Origin: Bernardetia sp.
GTDB taxonomy: Bacteria > Bacteroidota > Bacteroidia > Cytophagales > Bernardetiaceae
Direction: 5' to 3'
Assembly: GCF_020630935.1 (NCBI RefSeq)
Contig: NZ_JAHDIG010000053.1
Span: forward strand, 1-34,051
DNA length: 34,051 nt
The notes below the pieces were generated by a model that was not told the DNA's origin, did not search any database, and saw only the letters and a program-made list of their open reading frames with translations. How positions within the stretch are numbered: the stretch's first letter is position 1; every line of letters starts with the position of its first letter. The position numbers were made by a program, and so were the translations under genes. Below are positions 13,723 to 20,545 of this stretch, piece after piece.

Positions 13723-14925
13723 TTACTTTTTAAATAAAATCAAAGTGATTTTTTCTGGATTTCCATTAGTTCCATTTTCTTGTTCGTAGTAATAATCTTC
13801 AATAAAATCCTCAAAATCAACAATAAAATAAAATAAGAAATCTCGCACTTGATAAAAGTCTATATTTCCATAGGTATGTTTTAGAAGCTCTGTCATTCTG
13901 TATGAAACCTTTACTTTTTCTAACAGAGTATTAATTTTTCGTACTCCTTTGGCTGCTTTGCTTGTTGCATTTTCATCTATCAAAGAAAAAGATTGATTCA
14001 ATATTAAGGGTTCATTTTTTTCTAATTTCATAAACTGACTTATAAAACTAGAGTACGCCTTTTCGATAGGAAACTCAAAGTTAAAATTAGATTTTAGATT
14101 GCCATTTTCAAAAATATGTAAAGCTGGACGCTCTTCTCTTTTATATAGTTTTCCTGATTTTTCGCCATTTGTTTTTTTATGAATGAGTAATTCAGGTTTG
14201 TCGTATTTGTTGTGATAATGGTCAATGACAGTTTTTTCCCAACCTTTTGGCTGTGCAAGTGGATTGTTAGATACAGGATGCCATTGATGAAAAACTGGAG
14301 ACTTTTCCAAAGGAAACCATTTGACATCTAAATTCCTAGATAGGCGATAATGGATGTCTTTATCTTCAATTCCCCACATTCTAAAATACTCATCGAAGCC
14401 TCCAATGTGTTTTAATTCAGAAGTTTTGACAGCAAATATTCCTAGTGCTGAAGTTTTGCTACTTTCGTCTAAAGATGTAACGTCTGTATTTTGAAGCGTG
14501 TTTAAGTAATTTGTATAGTCAAAATTTGAAGGCAAGTAATAACATTGATAATGAAGAAGTGTATTTTGTTCTACATAATGGCTAATTTCCTCTAAAAAGT
14601 TGGGAAGATGAATCATATCTACATCAATAGTTATGAAATAATCTCCTGTTGCTTTGTTTAGAGCCAAATTGAGTGCTTCGGGCTTGCACCAAAACTTTCC
14701 TCTTGTTTCAGTATAGATATAAGTAATAAGGTCAGTCTCTTGACAAAACTTTTCTAATTCGGAAGATTTCTCTATATCACTTCCATAATCTATGAAGAAA
14801 ATTTCTGCTTCTACTGGTATATTATTATTTTGAAATATACTTTGGTTGATGAGAGAAGAGATACATCTTTTAGCAACCTCTACATCTCTGTTGCGATAAG
14901 GAACGACAAGAGAAAATTTAAGCAT
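13723..14925 (-). CDS. Family 2 glycosyltransferase with galactosyltransferase-type C-terminal motif
   Basis: A 400-residue GT-A fold enzyme. It begins FSLVVPYRNRD, has the metal-binding DVD at 101-103 (FITIDVDMIHLP), and a GGFDEYFRMWGIEDKDIHYR segment at 175-194 that matches the Glyco_transf_7C region of galactosyl- and GalNAc-transferases and chondroitin-polymerase-like proteins. Sugar donor and acceptor cannot be told from sequence. It has no membrane segment, so it acts in the cytoplasm, probably on a cell-surface glycan. The C-terminal third (about 240-400) is less typical and unassigned. No polysaccharide cluster surrounds it. It lies 91 nt downstream of the S41-like gene. Confidence 0.85.
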   Translation of the reverse strand: MLKFSLVVPYRNRDVEVAKRCISSLINQSIFQNNNIPVEAEIFFIDYGSDIEKSSELEKFCQETDLITYIYTETRGKFWCKPEALNLALNKATGDYFITIDVDMIHLPNFLEEISHYVEQNTLLHYQCYYLPSNFDYTNYLNTLQNTDVTSLDESSKTSALGIFAVKTSELKHIGGFDEYFRMWGIEDKDIHYRLSRNLDVKWFPLEKSPVFHQWHPVSNNPLAQPKGWEKTVIDHYHNKYDKPELLIHKKTNGEKSGKLYKREERPALHIFENGNLKSNFNFEFPIEKAYSSFISQFMKLEKNEPLILNQSFSLIDENATSKAAKGVRKINTLLEKVKVSYRMTELLKHTYGNIDFYQVRDFLFYFIVDFEDFIEDYYYEQENGTNGNPEKITLILFKK

Positions 14926-15016
14926 TAGAAAAATAAGTAGAACTAAAAATACATCAATGAAGACGAAAATAGTAGTTTTTTGTTTTCTAAGCTAGTAACC
15001 GTCTAAAAATAAAGTT

Positions 15017-17401
15017 TTATTTCAATATCTGATTGGAAAGAACATATTCCATTTTTTCTAGGGTTTCTCTATTCAAAACCTCTCCAAAAAGAAACTTTCC
15101 CTCTTTTCCCAATACCAAAACAACAGGTTCGCTGCTTGTTGGAATATATAAATCCTCAAAAATAGAGTTGCTACTTGGAATAATATCAGCATAAAATGGC
15201 GTTCCAATTAAAAATTCTTCTACTTCTTTTTTTTTGCTTTCTGTAAAACCATAAAAAGTGATATTGTTAGATGAATAGGTTTCAATCATTTTGTTGAGTA
15301 TTGGAATAGCTTCAATAGATTTTGTTGATGTTGGCGACCAAAAAAGAAAAACGCTTAATTTATTTTCTAAATCGTCTTTCAATATTTCATTTTCTGAAAG
15401 AAGAGTAAAACTAAAGTTTGGAAAGGCTTTAAAGAGATTTCTCTGCATTGTAAATCCTCTGAACAACGTCATTTTTTCCTCCTTACTCATTTTTGAAAAT
15501 GGGTAAGAAATTGTTGGTCTGATGATTTTGGTAGTATCAATAACTTGATTTTCTTTGATAAACTTTTTGAAATTATATTTTTCAATCTGTGTAAATTTTG
15601 CACTTGTGAAATCGCCATAACGCACAAACATATTCATTACAGAATCTGTTTCATTCTCTTTTTCTAGGTTTTTCTTGAAAAATACATAAATCGGTTGGGC
15701 TACCGTTTCATAAGGCGTTCTGTCTGTTCTTTTTTGTAGTCCACTTTCCACTAAAAATGTATTTGGAGTAGTTTGGTGAAGTACGGAAAGATGTTGATAA
15801 TTTTTGAGCCATAGTTTTCCGTCTTTGAAGATGATTTCTTTTCCTAAGCCATAACTTCCTAGAAATTCTCCTGCATTTTTGGGCAAAATATACGAATTAG
15901 GTTGTGGCTTGGTAATATTTTCTAACTGCTTAAAACGTTTTCCATACTTTCGGATATAAGTAAAATCGCTTTTTAAAATGCTTTGTTCATAAGCCATTTT
16001 GTAAGCAATGTCAAAAGCCTTATCTACACTTGTTGTATCATAAGCAGAGACAAAAATATTGGGTTTTACTACAAAATCTTCTTCATTTTCTGTTAAACTA
16101 ATTTCTATATCTGGGACATTGAGCCAAGCATACGCACTAACACCCACAGAGCGAGTGATTGTATTTTGTCCTTTTGTGTCTTCGCCTATCACAATAGCAT
16201 TTCTATATTTTTGTAAAACTTTTGCTATCCATTCAGCTATATCAGAGGTGTTTCTGTCCGTTAAGATATAAATAGGACGCTCATAATAACGCAAGGTGTA
16301 GTATTTTTCATAGTTTTTATCTACTTCTAATGGATAATGAGAGTAATGGTATAAATAATTTCCTCCTTTGAAGAAAGGTTTTACTTCTTCGGTTTTTGTC
16401 ATTAGAGAAATAGTAGGGTTTTCTACTGTTTTCCTGCGTGGCTTTCCATTATCTTTTAAATATTCTCTAGTGTGAAAAACTTTTGCTGTTCCTAAATTAT
16501 AGGTTGTGTCTGGACGAAAAAAACGCTCCACAAACCAAATGGGTACGCTCATTTCATTGATACTTTTGTCTTTTGTAAAGAATTTACTTTCAGGTTTGTA
16601 AAAACTAGCTTCTCTTAAATCTAAAATCAAGGCATCTGTAAAGAGAAATTCTTGAATTAAGTTTTTTATGAAACGCTCATCTACATAATTAGCAGTAGGT
16701 AAGAACGAACATTTTAAATAGCCAATATTTCCTTCTAAGATTTCTTTTTTCTCAAATCCGTTTACTAAATAATCTAAATTATAACGTGTAGAGTTATAGT
16801 TCCATAAATTGGTTTCGTAAGAAGCTCTGCGTCTGCCTCTTTTAACAGCTATTTTTCTAAATCCAGACTTGCCTTGAGCTATTCGATTATAGAAATTCTT
16901 TTTATTATAACGAAATAAACGCCACCATAAAGAGCCATACCTTAAATAGTGTGTATATTCATCAGACTTCAATCTTTCTCCTTTCCACCCATTTCCCCAA
17001 ACATGTTCTCTACCACAACTACAAAATCTTGACTTTCTATGAAATCCAAATTTTTCATCTTCTCCATGAACGTAACCCTCTTGTGGAGCAGTATTTTCAA
17101 GGGATAAAGCTGTATTATTGTCTAATTCATACCAATAGTGGTTTAGGTAAAAGGCAAATTCTTGTAAATTATATTCTATCAGAGAATCTATAAAAGCATT
17201 GTTTCCGATTTCTAAAATGGGTTTTCTATACAGTGAATCTGTCGTATAAAGACAAATTGTAGAGTCTAGTCTAGTTTTAAATTTTTCCACTTCTTCTTTT
17301 TCTATGATGCGTTCTGGTTTGCGTTGTGAGAAAGCAATAGTATAACTAACAACAGTAAAAAATAAACAAAGAAGGACAGTTTTTAGAAATGAGAGTTGCA
17401 T
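15017..17401 (-). CDS. Exported S41-protease-like protein fused to a thioredoxin-fold domain; both active sites look replaced
   Basis: A 794-residue protein with a signal peptide (1-25). An N-terminal helical region contains a CSCG motif (127-130). The S41 (tail-specific/IRBP) protease core runs from about 220 to 470: the ALILDLRE strand (257-264), YILTDRNTSDIAE (378-390) and GEDTKGQ (406-412) match the family's ALIIDLRG, VLTSRxTFSAAE and GETTGG. At the nucleophile Ser the gapless alignment puts Asp387, with Ser386 one place early. The C-terminal 130 residues look like a TlpA/redoxin fold. FLFWSPTSTKSIEAIP (685-700) sits where the family has FWATWCGPCR..., so the CxxC is S692-x-x-S695. It is probably periplasmic, a pseudoenzyme or binding protein, though altered catalysis is possible. 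It is a single gene, 91 nt before the glycosyltransferase. Confidence 0.75.
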   Translation of the reverse strand: MQLSFLKTVLLCLFFTVVSYTIAFSQRKPERIIEKEEVEKFKTRLDSTICLYTTDSLYRKPILEIGNNAFIDSLIEYNLQEFAFYLNHYWYELDNNTALSLENTAPQEGYVHGEDEKFGFHRKSRFCSCGREHVWGNGWKGERLKSDEYTHYLRYGSLWWRLFRYNKKNFYNRIAQGKSGFRKIAVKRGRRRASYETNLWNYNSTRYNLDYLVNGFEKKEILEGNIGYLKCSFLPTANYVDERFIKNLIQEFLFTDALILDLREASFYKPESKFFTKDKSINEMSVPIWFVERFFRPDTTYNLGTAKVFHTREYLKDNGKPRRKTVENPTISLMTKTEEVKPFFKGGNYLYHYSHYPLEVDKNYEKYYTLRYYERPIYILTDRNTSDIAEWIAKVLQKYRNAIVIGEDTKGQNTITRSVGVSAYAWLNVPDIEISLTENEEDFVVKPNIFVSAYDTTSVDKAFDIAYKMAYEQSILKSDFTYIRKYGKRFKQLENITKPQPNSYILPKNAGEFLGSYGLGKEIIFKDGKLWLKNYQHLSVLHQTTPNTFLVESGLQKRTDRTPYETVAQPIYVFFKKNLEKENETDSVMNMFVRYGDFTSAKFTQIEKYNFKKFIKENQVIDTTKIIRPTISYPFSKMSKEEKMTLFRGFTMQRNLFKAFPNFSFTLLSENEILKDDLENKLSVFLFWSPTSTKSIEAIPILNKMIETYSSNNITFYGFTESKKKEVEEFLIGTPFYADIIPSSNSIFEDLYIPTSSEPVVLVLGKEGKFLFGEVLNRETLEKMEYVLSNQILK

Positions 17402-17417
17402 ATTTTAATGCTAAAAG

Positions 17418-17436
17418 GGATAACGCATGGTTATCC
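17418..17436. repeat. Hairpin in the leader of the S41-like gene
   Basis: GGATAAC (17418-17424) pairs with GTTATCC (17430-17436) around a 5-nt loop, 16 bases upstream of the start codon. A perfect -7-type element, TAGATTTG on the minus strand (complement of 17463-17470), lies further upstream, so the hairpin would be in the transcript. It may be a REP-like unit or a leader structure. Confidence 0.5.
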
Positions 17437-17540
17437 TTACAAAAAAGATAATAATAATTTGACAAATCTAAACAAAAAATATGTATTGACTAAAATTTTA
17501 GTTGAAAAACTTTGTTTTTAGTTGTTTGTGTTTAGACAAG

Positions 17541-17584
17541 AAAAAACTCCTTAAAACAATTATTATGATGCTTTAAGGAGTTTT
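17541..17584 (-). terminator. Terminator of the padR-pspC unit
   Basis: AAAACTCCTTAAA (17543-17555) pairs perfectly over 13 bp with TTTAAGGAGTTTT (17572-17584), loop 16 nt. On the minus strand the stem is followed by a run of six T, so it ends pspC, 40 bases beyond its stop. Confidence 0.85.
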
Positions 17585-17589
17585 GCAGA

Positions 17590-17624
17590 AATGAATAGTT
17601 ATCATTTACCACTTATAATTTATC
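17590..17624. repeat. Degenerate heptamer array abutting the pspC stop codon
   Basis: The 7-bp register runs through TAGTTAT (17596), CATTTAC (17603), CACTTAT (17610) and AATTTAT (17617). It stops at the pspC stop codon (17624-17626). Confidence 0.55.
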
Positions 17625-18565
17625 TAAAAGTGTTTTTTAAAGAATTTAGAATTTTTGATTTTTGAAGCTGTTGAGCTTACAGTATCTTCAAACTGACTTT
17701 CTACTTGTGCTACTCTAGCTTTAAAACTCTCATCTTCCAAGAAAGAAGGTTTTTCTTCCAAGTCAATTTGCTCTTGTAGGCTTTTTGCTTCTGGCATAGC
17801 AATCCAAAGAGCTAAATAAGCTAAAAGTCCGAATCCGTCTAAGAATAGAGTTCCAATGAAAAGCAAGCGTACTATTGTCTCATCAATACCAAAATATTTT
17901 GCAATTCCTGAAGCTACACCACCTACTTTTTTATCGACCATGCTACGCATAAAACGCTTCGTTTTGGCAAGTGCAGATGTTGATTCTTGTTTTTCTAACA
18001 TTCCTTCCTTAGGGTCTTTTGGCATTGCTAACCAAGAGGCTGCATACAGAGGAATACCAAATCCACCAGCAAAAAGACTAGCTACAAAACCCAAACGAAC
18101 AAAAGCTGGGTCAATATTGTAATAATCAGCAATTCCAGAGGCTACACCACCAATTTTTTTATCTCTCTTTTTGAGTGTAAATTTTTTGCCTACACTACGC
18201 AATTCTTTTTTAGGAGCAGCTTTTTTGAGAGTTTGCCATTGGTCTTTTCGCTCAAAATAACCTAAATCTAAATCTATACCTTCTGCAATCGCAATTTCTT
18301 TTGCTGTTCCGACTTGCAAAATCATGATTTCAATATCATTTTTGTCAATCGTTCCTTTATCAATACTCAAACGCTCCAAGAGAACTTCTGCCATTCTTGT
18401 TTCGATATCCTCAATCGTCATTGAATCTTCTGGAAAGCAACGCTTCAAATCCATTAGATAGGCTTTTAGTGTTGGATAAGCTGCTTGCTCAACGTGAAAA
18501 GAAATGGATGCAATATTAACTTCCAAAGTATTGTTTAAAGACGAATTTGTGTGGAGTGGAGGCAT
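17624..18565 (-). CDS. Double PspC-domain membrane protein
   Basis: A 313-residue protein. Residues 1-100 form the helical N-terminal region common in Bacteroidota PspC proteins (LKAYLMDLKRCF...VLLERL...GTAKEIA). Two PspC domains follow, at about 128-183 and 202-260. Each starts KKxGGVASGIAxYxxID and ends in a membrane helix (IPLYAASWLAMP and LAYLALWIAMP). The C-terminal 55 residues are charged and helical. PspC proteins sense or buffer inner-membrane stress, and in this phylum the gene is regularly paired with a padR regulator, as here. No pspA is nearby. The close similarity of the two PspC domains points to an internal duplication. Confidence 0.88.
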   Translation of the reverse strand: MPPLHTNSSLNNTLEVNIASISFHVEQAAYPTLKAYLMDLKRCFPEDSMTIEDIETRMAEVLLERLSIDKGTIDKNDIEIMILQVGTAKEIAIAEGIDLDLGYFERKDQWQTLKKAAPKKELRSVGKKFTLKKRDKKIGGVASGIADYYNIDPAFVRLGFVASLFAGGFGIPLYAASWLAMPKDPKEGMLEKQESTSALAKTKRFMRSMVDKKVGGVASGIAKYFGIDETIVRLLFIGTLFLDGFGLLAYLALWIAMPEAKSLQEQIDLEEKPSFLEDESFKARVAQVESQFEDTVSSTASKIKNSKFFKKHF

Positions 18566-18639
18566 GATAAATTGAGAGTTTAGGTTTGAACACTTAGAAT
18601 ATATATTGTTATTTGCTTCTAAGTTTTCTGATGTAGTTG

Positions 18640-18674
18640 ATAGATAATTAGTTAGTAATAGGTAATGATGAAAA
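18640..18674. repeat. Degenerate heptamer array in the padR-pspC gap
   Basis: ATAGATA, ATTAGTT, AGTAATA, GGTAATG and ATGAAAA follow in a 7-bp register. It is weaker than the other arrays. The 215-nt gap holds nothing else I can identify. Confidence 0.4.
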
Positions 18675-18780
18675 ATTACATTTTTTTTAAATTATTTTGT
18701 AGGTTAAATGCCTTGTCTTTGACAAAGAAGAGAAACTGTATTCATTTTAAAATCTGATTTCTCCTTTCTAAATAGTTTTT

Positions 18781-19146
18781 TTAGCTGGCTTGTCGTTGTT
18801 CTTGTCTATTCTGATTTGTATTTTCTAAAAGAGTATTTGTTGAAAAAACAAGTTGATGCCAAGAGTTGGTCAATCCTTGTAAAAAATCATGTCCATTGTC
18901 TGTTAAGCGATAATATTTTCTTGGAGGACCTCCTGTAGATTCTTGCCACGAGTAAGTAACTAATCCAGATTTATTCAGACGATTTAGAAGTGGATAAAGC
19001 GTTCCTTCTACTACCAATAATTGAGCTTCCTTTAAGCTGCGAAGTAGCTCAGAAGCATACACTTCACCACCTGCAATTACACGCAAAACACACAGTTCCA
19101 AAATTCCTTTTCGCATTTGTACTTCAGCATTTTCTAATGTAATCAC
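18781..19146 (-). CDS. PadR-family transcriptional regulator
   Basis: A 121-residue winged-helix protein. MRKGILELCVLRVI (11-24) opens the helix-turn-helix, then EVYASELLRSLKEAQLLVVEGTLYPLLNRLNKSGLV (helices 2-3) and a wing TYSWQESTGGPPRKYYRLT. This is the standard PadR pattern. The start is GTG at 19146: an in-frame stop lies just one codon upstream, and the next Met (residue 11) would cut into the conserved QMRKG. It probably represses its own operon with pspC, which follows 215 nt downstream on the same strand. A dyad TTATAC-6-GTATAA at 19225-19242, about 80 nt upstream, is a candidate operator. Confidence 0.9.
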   Translation of the reverse strand: MITLENAEVQMRKGILELCVLRVIAGGEVYASELLRSLKEAQLLVVEGTLYPLLNRLNKSGLVTYSWQESTGGPPRKYYRLTDNGHDFLQGLTNSWHQLVFSTNTLLENTNQNRQEQRQAS

Positions 19147-19224
19147 GTCTTATTTGGTTAAATGTTTAATTGTTTTAGTGAATAATGAAAGAGCTTAAAA
19201 CTCTAACAATGTCCGTATGTCTTC

Positions 19225-19242
19225 TTATACGAAGCAGTATAA
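19225..19242. promoter_or_regulatory. Dyad upstream of padR, candidate PadR operator
   Basis: TTATAC and GTATAA form a perfect 6-bp inverted repeat with a 6-nt spacer, about 80 nt upstream of the padR start. PadR-family proteins bind inverted repeats near their own promoters. The link is inferred from position only. Confidence 0.35.
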
Positions 19243-19450
19243 AAAAGGTTACTATGTTATGCAAGGTAGTAGGTAAAATAATTTGTAATGAGCAAGTGAA
19301 AATATGAAAAGTGTTGATTTTCAGTGAGTTATGAGTGGTTTTTAAGTTGGATGAATTGTAAAATATTTATAACATTATGAAAGCAAAGAAAATTTTTGCT
19401 AAAAAAAGAGAGCAAGTGCAAAAAATAATGTATATTTATCGTTGCTAATC

Positions 19451-19479
19451 AATTACGAATTAAAAATTACGAATTACGA
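19451..19479. repeat. Heptamer array (AATTACG type)
   Basis: AATTACG, AATTAAA, AATTACG, AATTACG and A follow in perfect 7-bp register. It is the reverse-strand form of the AATTCGT/AATTTTT array at 12241. Confidence 0.8.
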
Positions 19480-19621
19480 CCTGATAAAGCAGTGAAGCTA
19501 ATTGAAATACAATATAATCAGTTACGGATTTGTGGTTTTATGATTTTTGAAATTCTACCTTTACAAAAGATTTTTTAGTGTTGTGTCTAACTAATTTTAA
19601 GTAATCAGAGTTAAGACAAAT

Positions 19622-19677
19622 AATTCGTAATTAGCTTCGCTGAATGCTTATTTCGTAATTAAAAAAAATCGTAATTG
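19622..19677. repeat. Degenerate heptamer array ending at the coiled-coil gene start
   Basis: AATTCGT, AATTAGC, TTCGCTG, AATGCTT, ATTTCGT, AATTAAA, AAAAATC and GTAATTG keep the 7-bp register: AATTCGT and ATTTCGT are exactly 28 bp apart. It ends 4 bases before the ATG at 19682. Confidence 0.6.
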
Positions 19678-19681
19678 AGTC

Positions 19682-20545
19682 ATGTCAAAATCAAATACAC
19701 CATTCGGATATATCAAGGGTTCTATTAATCAGCCTGTGAGCATCGTAAAGTATGCGATTGGCGTGGTGGCGATTGCTGCTTTAGTAGCTTTTATCTTCAA
19801 TACAACACAGGGTTCTGATAAAAAAGAGGTAGAAAATACATTTTTGTTAGAAGACATTAGAAAAACTAACGAAGAGCATCTCAAAACGATTGCAGACCTT
19901 CAAAAACAGTTAGAAGAGTCAGAAAACAATGCAGCCAAAATAAAGGAAGAACTCATTCAAAAACAAGCGCAGATAGATTCGAAAGGTGCACAAATTGATG
20001 CAAAAGAAGGAAGTATCGGAACGCTCCAAACACAACTTAGCGATTTGAAAAATGACAAAATGCGTCTGCATCAAATTATAGATGAACGTGGAAGAGAACT
20101 AGCTCAAATGACAGAGCGAAACAAAGAACAAAATTCGCTTTTAGAAACCACTCAAAACAATCTTCAAAAGTCGCAAGAACAAACTCGTCAAGACCAACAA
20201 GCTATTAAAAACCTTCAAGAAGAACTTCGTGGACTCAATGAAAAAGTAAATATTGCCTACAACCACGAAAAAGATTTGCAAAGCCAAGTTAATAAGCTCT
20301 TGACAGACCTCAACCAAACTCGTACAGAGCTTAATCAGTCAAGAATGGATTTGAGTGATGCTAAAGCAGAGCTACGTATTTTGAAGGAACTTCACCCAAT
20401 GAACAATAACGTTCCTGTTCAGCAAATCACACTCTCACAACAGCAACCTCAAGAAGAAAGTAGTGCCAATGCCCTCAAAATGGTAGCTATCGTTTCTGTA
20501 ATTGTGATGTTTATTGTTTTTGTTGTTTATATGCTTAGAGATTAG
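19682..20545 (+). CDS. Coiled-coil protein anchored at both ends
   Basis: A 287-residue protein with a membrane helix near the N-terminus (about 21-39), a continuous Gln/Glu/Lys/Leu heptad coiled coil (about 45-245), a Gln-rich Pro-containing linker (about 246-265), and a second membrane helix (266-284) ending in a 3-residue tail. By hydrophobicity the long coil should lie on one side of the membrane, held at both ends. No catalytic motif is present. Similar coiled coils occur in septum and envelope scaffolds, but nothing more specific can be said. The start codon follows a heptamer array and has no Shine-Dalgarno sequence. Confidence 0.65.
   Translation: MSKSNTPFGYIKGSINQPVSIVKYAIGVVAIAALVAFIFNTTQGSDKKEVENTFLLEDIRKTNEEHLKTIADLQKQLEESENNAAKIKEELIQKQAQIDSKGAQIDAKEGSIGTLQTQLSDLKNDKMRLHQIIDERGRELAQMTERNKEQNSLLETTQNNLQKSQEQTRQDQQAIKNLQEELRGLNEKVNIAYNHEKDLQSQVNKLLTDLNQTRTELNQSRMDLSDAKAELRILKELHPMNNNVPVQQITLSQQQPQEESSANALKMVAIVSVIVMFIVFVVYMLRD

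Follow-up and report, generated by a model that had tools for sequence, protein, structure and literature searches.

An IRBP-like S41 peptidase-thioredoxin fusion with both active sites replaced is maintained by selection in Bernardetia

According to PMC10450429, the vertebrate protein IRBP goes back to a bacterial S41 peptidase, and its active-site serine was probably lost three times independently before the divergence of the vertebrates; the primary paper on this transfer, to which PMC10450429 refers, is that of Kalluraya et al. 2023. Vertebrate RBP3 is described in PMC11750400 as having lost its protease residues and as carrying retinoids and fatty acids. Here we describe a gene in a stretch of 34,051 nucleotides from Bernardetia sp. 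(contig NZ_JAHDIG010000053.1; this whole stretch is called the window), the 794-residue product of which joins an IRBP-like peptidase S41 domain, a barrel-like domain and a TlpA-like thioredoxin domain, with both active sites replaced. Bernardetia is a marine genus of the Cytophagales. Like vertebrate IRBP/RBP3 (PDB 9frx, 7jti and 4lur), in which most modules have lost the catalytic Ser, the fusion protein lacks this residue, and in the four modules of porcine RBP3 the column of Asp387 of the fusion reads Gly, Thr, Ser and Gly. It differs from IRBP/RBP3 in being bacterial, in having one S41 module accompanied by barrel-like and thioredoxin domains, and in having Asp as the replacement. Many of the bacterial IRBP-like S41 peptidases (Flavobacterium and others; PF03572) have the same core order of N-terminal region, S41 domain and C-terminal barrel, but they keep the Ser, mostly in TFSAAE or TFSAGE, and most of them keep DLRxNGGG, GAHP and NWEGxGV. 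With Prc/CtpA the Bernardetia protein shares the S41 fold and an alignable active-site strand and helix, but it lacks the Ser/Lys dyad and has no Pfam PDZ match. With the TlpA/ResA oxidoreductases it shares the thioredoxin fold, and a proline aligns with that of their presumed cis-Pro loop, whereas both redox cysteines are Ser. Inactive S41 relatives are already known in IRBP, and thioredoxin folds without CxxC are common in the genome of the window; in the open-access literature, searched by titles and abstract openings among the matches listed, a bacterial fusion of an inactive IRBP-like S41 domain with a thioredoxin domain was not described.

The gene is free of stops over its 794 residues, the plus strand of the same interval is full of stops and non-coding, and the genome has a single copy of it. 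The original prediction, made from this DNA, had quoted the motifs TDRNTSDIAE (381-390), GEDTKGQ (406-412), FLFWSP and S692-T-K-S695, and both the reading frame and these motifs were found at the residues it gave. The gene and its parts are as follows.

15017 to 17401, minus strand: open reading frame of 794 amino acids, an IRBP-like S41/barrel/TlpA-like fusion with both active sites replaced
17327 to 17401, minus strand: signal-like hydrophobic stretch, residues 1-25, followed by Gln26 (read from the sequence)
17072 to 17326, minus strand: N-terminal region, mainly helical, residues 26-110, the best conserved part
17012 to 17023, minus strand: Cys-x-Cys-Gly, residues 127-130, within an insert (111-207) that is variable and poorly modelled
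15962 to 16780, minus strand: IRBP-like peptidase S41 domain, residues 208-480, of which about 269-371 are poorly modelled
16241 to 16243, minus strand: Asp387, in the place of the S41 nucleophile (Prc Ser452)
16166 to 16168, minus strand: Gln412, in the place of the catalytic lysine (Prc Lys477)
15572 to 15874, minus strand: beta-strand-rich, barrel-like domain, residues 510-610
15020 to 15436, minus strand: TlpA/thioredoxin-fold domain, residues 656-794
15317 to 15328, minus strand: Ser692-Thr-Lys-Ser695, replacing CxxC

When the protein was compared with Pfam, PF03572 (Peptidase_S41) matched at 35.8 bits, above its cut-off of 24, and AhpC-TSA matched the thioredoxin part at 13.9 bits, which is under its cut-off of 26. 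Among the Pfam matches up to an E value of 1 there was no PDZ family, a degenerate copy remaining possible, and no match to the IRBP N-terminal domain PF11918; this domain was matched in a relative from the Flavobacteriaceae (L062, 34.3 bits). The model of the whole protein, built with 25 sequences, had a mean predicted local distance difference test score (pLDDT) of 59 and a predicted template modelling score (pTM) of 0.45, and its block 381-390 scored 87. In the barrel-like domain, which is also present in Ser-bearing IRBP-like S41 relatives, ten-residue blocks had a pLDDT of 88-92 and loops stood at 50-75. The domain had no structure match among the best 50 rows of either structure search with the second model, these rows being filled by thioredoxins, and the label 'barrel' is a reading of the strand pattern in the model. 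Gln26 after the hydrophobic N-terminus is identical in all six intact orthologues described below. According to PMC10653852, Gln follows the signal sequence in exported proteins of Bacteroidetes (the Q-rule), and because the hydrophobic N-terminus and Gln26 fit this rule, the 794-residue protein is probably exported.

The best PDB match of the protein by sequence was porcine RBP3 (E 1.9e-16), and Foldseek ranked IRBP first for the protein model. The fold matches in VIA were IRBP 7jti_D (Z 16.4, root-mean-square deviation (rmsd) 4.5, 268 residues aligned) and 4lur (Z 16.3), together with CtpA 8sxe_A (Z 15.7, rmsd 3.5 over 196 residues), which is tied with IRBP within one Z unit. By sequence and fold, the S41 domain belongs nearest to the IRBP modules and their bacterial relatives, with CtpA tying in VIA Z. 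In phmmer, a gapless alignment of 46 residues pairs residues 372-417 with 437-482 of E. coli Prc; in this alignment Asp387 is opposite Prc Ser452 and Gln412 is opposite Prc Lys477, which we take to be the catalytic dyad of Prc. In the same two columns, the chain of the S452I mutant has its Ile and another Prc chain has Ala. This alignment bears out the earlier claim that Asp occupies the nucleophile position. It also places Ser386, the residue that had been named as a possible member of the dyad, beside the nucleophile column and not in it, and in the model a strand (377-381) is followed by Asp387 immediately before the helix 388-399, a placement which would be that of a nucleophile elbow and would leave Ser386 off the site. 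The claim that the fold-defining motifs are kept held in so far as FLFWSP and GEDTKGQ are present, but GEDTKGQ is not intact, as its Gln412 stands for the catalytic Lys477. The motifs DLRxNGGG, GAHP and NWEGxGVxPD, which are common in the relatives, are also lost.

The nucleophile column was read in 66 distinct S41 rows (E below 1e-13, more than 250 residues, identical sequences taken once, L144 added; weaker or shorter matches excluded). It held Ser in 58 rows, Asp in six, all of them the Bernardetia orthologues, and Gly in two, which are a paralogue in the Bernardetia genome G003 and another protein of the order (L037). A looser count, limited to motif rows that had under 15 gaps and with identical motifs counted once, gave Ser in 52, Asp in six and Gly in one of 59. 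Ser occupies this position in each of the six further S41 domains of the genome (L004 and L006 placed by eye), and therefore Asp387 is not the outcome of a general drift in this genome. Of the Ser-bearing proteins, the nearest two belong to a different family of the order; they have the Ser but neither GAHP nor NWEG, and since these relatives are already without the two motifs, the sequences suggest that the S41 site decayed stepwise. In a tree of the 66 rows the six orthologues, the paralogue, L037 and these two Ser-bearing proteins formed a supported set of 10 (96/96), and parsimony on the tree gave two changes of the Ser state; long branches meet in this set, which limits what the tree says on the order of the losses inside it.

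The thioredoxin fold was matched in VIA at residues 664-792 of the whole-protein model (Z 10.9), and the second model matched 6x0b_A with Z 11.5 and rmsd 2.6 over 110 residues; in Foldseek, types such as TlpA, ResA and DsbE were among the best matches of the second model. Ser692 and Ser695 align to both Cys of ResA and its relatives, so that the predicted replacement of CxxC was confirmed, and both Cys were present at these positions in 12 of the 13 distinct TlpA-like motif rows from outside Bernardetia. Pro759 is invariant in the six intact orthologues and aligns with a Pro of 2l5o; on the strength of this alignment it may be the cis-Pro that faces the active site.

The survey sample consisted of 148 genomes including that of the window, among them seven Bernardetia and four other genomes of the family. 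Matches to the protein were found in 31 of the 148, and near-full-length matches only in Bernardetia, where six genomes have one and the remaining genome, G005, has fragments of the gene. In the 24 other matching genomes the matches were partial, covering the S41 or the thioredoxin region, and in G033 and G062 both regions were matched, at separate places. Asp387, Ser692 and Ser695 are common to all six intact orthologues, and none of them keeps Ser or CxxC. For this reason a single mutated copy and a sequencing error were both rejected as explanations of the replaced residues. The pairwise ratio of nonsynonymous to synonymous substitution rates (dN/dS) was 0.12-0.22 for the whole protein, compared to 0.06-0.12 for the neighbouring PspC gene (five genomes), and the six intact copies span synonymous distances (dS) of 0.34-1.48. 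By segment, dN/dS was 0.07 for residues 26-110 (mean identity 0.91), 0.25 for the Cys-containing insert, 0.12 for the S41 domain, 0.14 for the barrel, 0.12 for the linker (13 pairs) and 0.15 for the thioredoxin domain, so that the mature segments range over 0.07-0.25, and it was 0.41 for the signal sequence. As dN/dS is low in every mature segment, both domains are maintained without their catalytic residues. The genus maintains the inactive form under purifying selection, which agrees with the selection for a non-catalytic form that had been proposed from the one sequence.

The copy in G005 is a wreck: it contains stops and an insertion, and a large deletion has left almost nothing of its S41 and barrel parts. 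A short element in this broken orthologue (L042, G005:C218, 3419-3578) has terminal inverted repeats (GGGCGCATCTCAAAATG...) and is flanked by two copies of ATTTGCAA, a probable target duplication of 8 base pairs (bp). With up to one mismatch allowed, G005 has 89 occurrences of the repeat end (49 forward and 40 reverse), many of them in facing pairs separated by about 75-150 bp, whereas none of the 10 remaining genomes of the family has more than one; there has been a recent burst of an element like a miniature inverted-repeat transposable element in this one species.

The paralogue in G003 (L144, 595-2787) has 731 residues and the same layout, with an S41-like match of 31.4 bits, an AhpC-TSA match of 59.2 bits and a middle stretch with sub-threshold similarity to DUF3471. 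Its S41 motif is NTAGLTN, with Gly at the nucleophile and Asn for the Glu of the motif, and it has RAPC for CxxC, in which the first Cys has become Arg and the second is kept. Among the matches listed for 194 genomes, with five candidates scored per genome, the full-length paralogue was found only in G003. As read from these two proteins, the fused architecture has lost both sites in two forms, by different substitutions. No S41 open reading frame in the 62 loci from outside Bernardetia matched the thioredoxin profile. The locus L049 has a separate, unfused TlpA gene, and in one clear case, L038 (318-3746) of G124 from another family, a Ser-bearing IRBP-like S41 gene, a CarbopepD_reg_2 gene and a TlpA gene with CPPC stand in a tight head-to-tail row, a hint of cooperation between IRBP-like S41 proteins and TlpA proteins. 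In L037 (G147) the S41-like gene with Gly at the nucleophile is followed by a gene which, by its start, is like the one that follows in the L038 row. G003 is also the only one of the seven Bernardetia genomes with a rhodopsin match, which is on the same contig as the paralogue and far from it.

From its sequence the 794-residue protein would be classed as a pseudoenzyme, its catalytic residues being lost and the protein being maintained by selection. We consider it likely, though well short of certain, that it is an exported, catalytically dead binding scaffold of the cell envelope. In this scheme the protein would be secreted by Sec through its Q-rule N-terminus and would stay in the envelope. 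Because the nucleophile, the base and the neighbouring motifs are gone while the fold is kept, the S41 domain could at most hold a ligand in its cleft, which might be a peptide or another extended or hydrophobic molecule. The beta-barrel would join the S41 and thioredoxin domains, and since both Cys of the latter are gone and the proline of its substrate-facing loop, Pro759, is kept, the thioredoxin domain may dock a partner protein without disulfide exchange. By analogy, the precedent for such a change from peptidase to binding protein would be vertebrate RBP3.

The genes upstream of the fusion gene, and the features that separate it from them, are the following.

17624 to 18565, minus strand: PspC-domain protein, upstream neighbour, with two matched PspC stretches
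18781 to 19146, minus strand: PadR-type regulator, upstream neighbour
17541 to 17582, minus strand: hairpin and T-run, like an intrinsic terminator, between the PspC gene and the fusion gene (-16.5 kcal/mol, z -6.8)
17463 to 17470, minus strand: TAGATTTG, candidate promoter box of the fusion gene

The PspC gene adjoins the fusion gene in all seven genomes of the genus, and PadR is upstream in the six that were examined. A consensus scan with a loop limit of 8 gave no terminator in 14900-19700, and the hairpin at 17541-17582 was therefore not reported by it. TAGATTTG fits the Bacteroidetes -7 promoter consensus TAnnTTTG. Because the hairpin with its T-run and the TAGATTTG box stand after the PspC gene, the fusion gene is probably transcribed on its own. 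TAGATTTG occurs at nine sites in the window as compared to 2.7 expected in shuffles, and one of 100 shuffles reaches nine. Two genomes of other genera of the family have the PadR-PspC pair without the fusion gene, and for this reason, and because of the intervening hairpin and promoter-like box, an operon with PspC and PadR was dropped as functional evidence.

Several observations weigh against the scaffold reading. The full-length gene was found in none of the four genomes of the family from outside the genus, and because the G005 copy is wrecked the gene is dispensable at least in that lineage, that is, in one of the seven members of the genus. Of the 21 further thioredoxin-like loci in the genome of the window, at least four are without CxxC (L176, L177, L179 and L190, by eye), and CxxC is also absent in L016, from another family, and, by eye, in L156; the loss of CxxC was therefore rejected as a unique and strong argument. 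Two independent losses in one protein had been put forward in the original prediction, and both sites are indeed replaced, but the argument is weaker than it was taken to be, given how frequent the loss of CxxC is and that one copy in seven is wrecked. Taken together, L176, L177, L179 and L190 may point to a set of thioredoxin folds without redox activity in this genome. The synteny with PadR and PspC is of little weight, as a terminator-like hairpin lies between the genes, and the whole-protein model is poor.

A different role for the same inactive protein would be that of an independent bacterial counterpart of IRBP, in which the dead S41 cleft and the barrel carry a hydrophobic ligand (a fatty acid, a carotenoid or another isoprenoid) across the periplasm, and we consider this unlikely. 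IRBP/RBP3 is nearest by sequence and fold and has itself undergone such a functional change, and a beta-strand-rich, barrel-like domain is attached to the S41 domain; however, by fold score the CtpA proteases come level with IRBP (Z 15.7 versus 16.4), and the barrel is present in Ser-bearing relatives too and hence is no sign of a new function. Rhodopsin, a source of retinal demand, is matched in one of the seven Bernardetia genomes, whereas the gene is in all seven (one broken). Since PF01036 is present in just that one Bernardetia genome (G003), the gene does not follow rhodopsin, and with PF01036 in 44 of the 148 genomes of the order a link to rhodopsin was rejected. That the bacterial S41-barrel-dead thioredoxin protein became a carrier of hydrophobic ligands independently of the animals, perhaps twice in the genus, in the gene of the window and in the G003 paralogue, has in our judgement a slightly smaller chance.

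It had also been proposed that an N-terminal CSCG may hold the only reactive cysteines of the protein. This was not upheld, as there are four mature Cys (C50, C127, C129 and C231), all invariant in the six intact orthologues. If the CxC of C127 and C129 acted together with C50 or C231, the protein could be redox-active, with the S41 and thioredoxin folds as a mere platform for the substrate. In its favour exactly these four Cys are invariant, and the six intact orthologues share, unchanged, the motif Cys-x-Cys-Gly-Arg-Glu-His (17000-17023), which lies in the mature segment that evolves fastest. This motif may, however, possibly be a metal or disulfide site, that is, the Cys may form structural disulfides or bind metal instead; the CxC region is modelled at a pLDDT mostly below 50, and CxC is in neither of the two Ser-bearing relatives of the alignment. 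We find a redox role through these cysteines rather improbable. Still less probable is that the gene is in decay and merely continues to read through. The insertion, stops and deletion in one of the seven copies, and a faster change than that of the PspC neighbour, would be expected of such a gene, but six copies have stayed intact over the dS range given above with constraint in every mature segment, and the replacing residues are themselves invariant. Residual hydrolysis by a rearranged site is the least credible of all, for although neither Asp387 nor Ser386 varies among the six intact orthologues, the base and the neighbouring motifs are gone as well and Ser386 would lie off the site in the model.

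The finding is of less importance if the protein is just another scaffold of the periplasm, and this is the more likely case. Even so, two joined enzyme folds which have lost their catalytic residues and are conserved in this state are a natural test of why dead folds persist. As the S41 domain is nearest to IRBP among solved structures and has Ser-bearing sisters in the same order (L048 and L049), the change from a peptidase to a binding protein would be open to study in bacteria.

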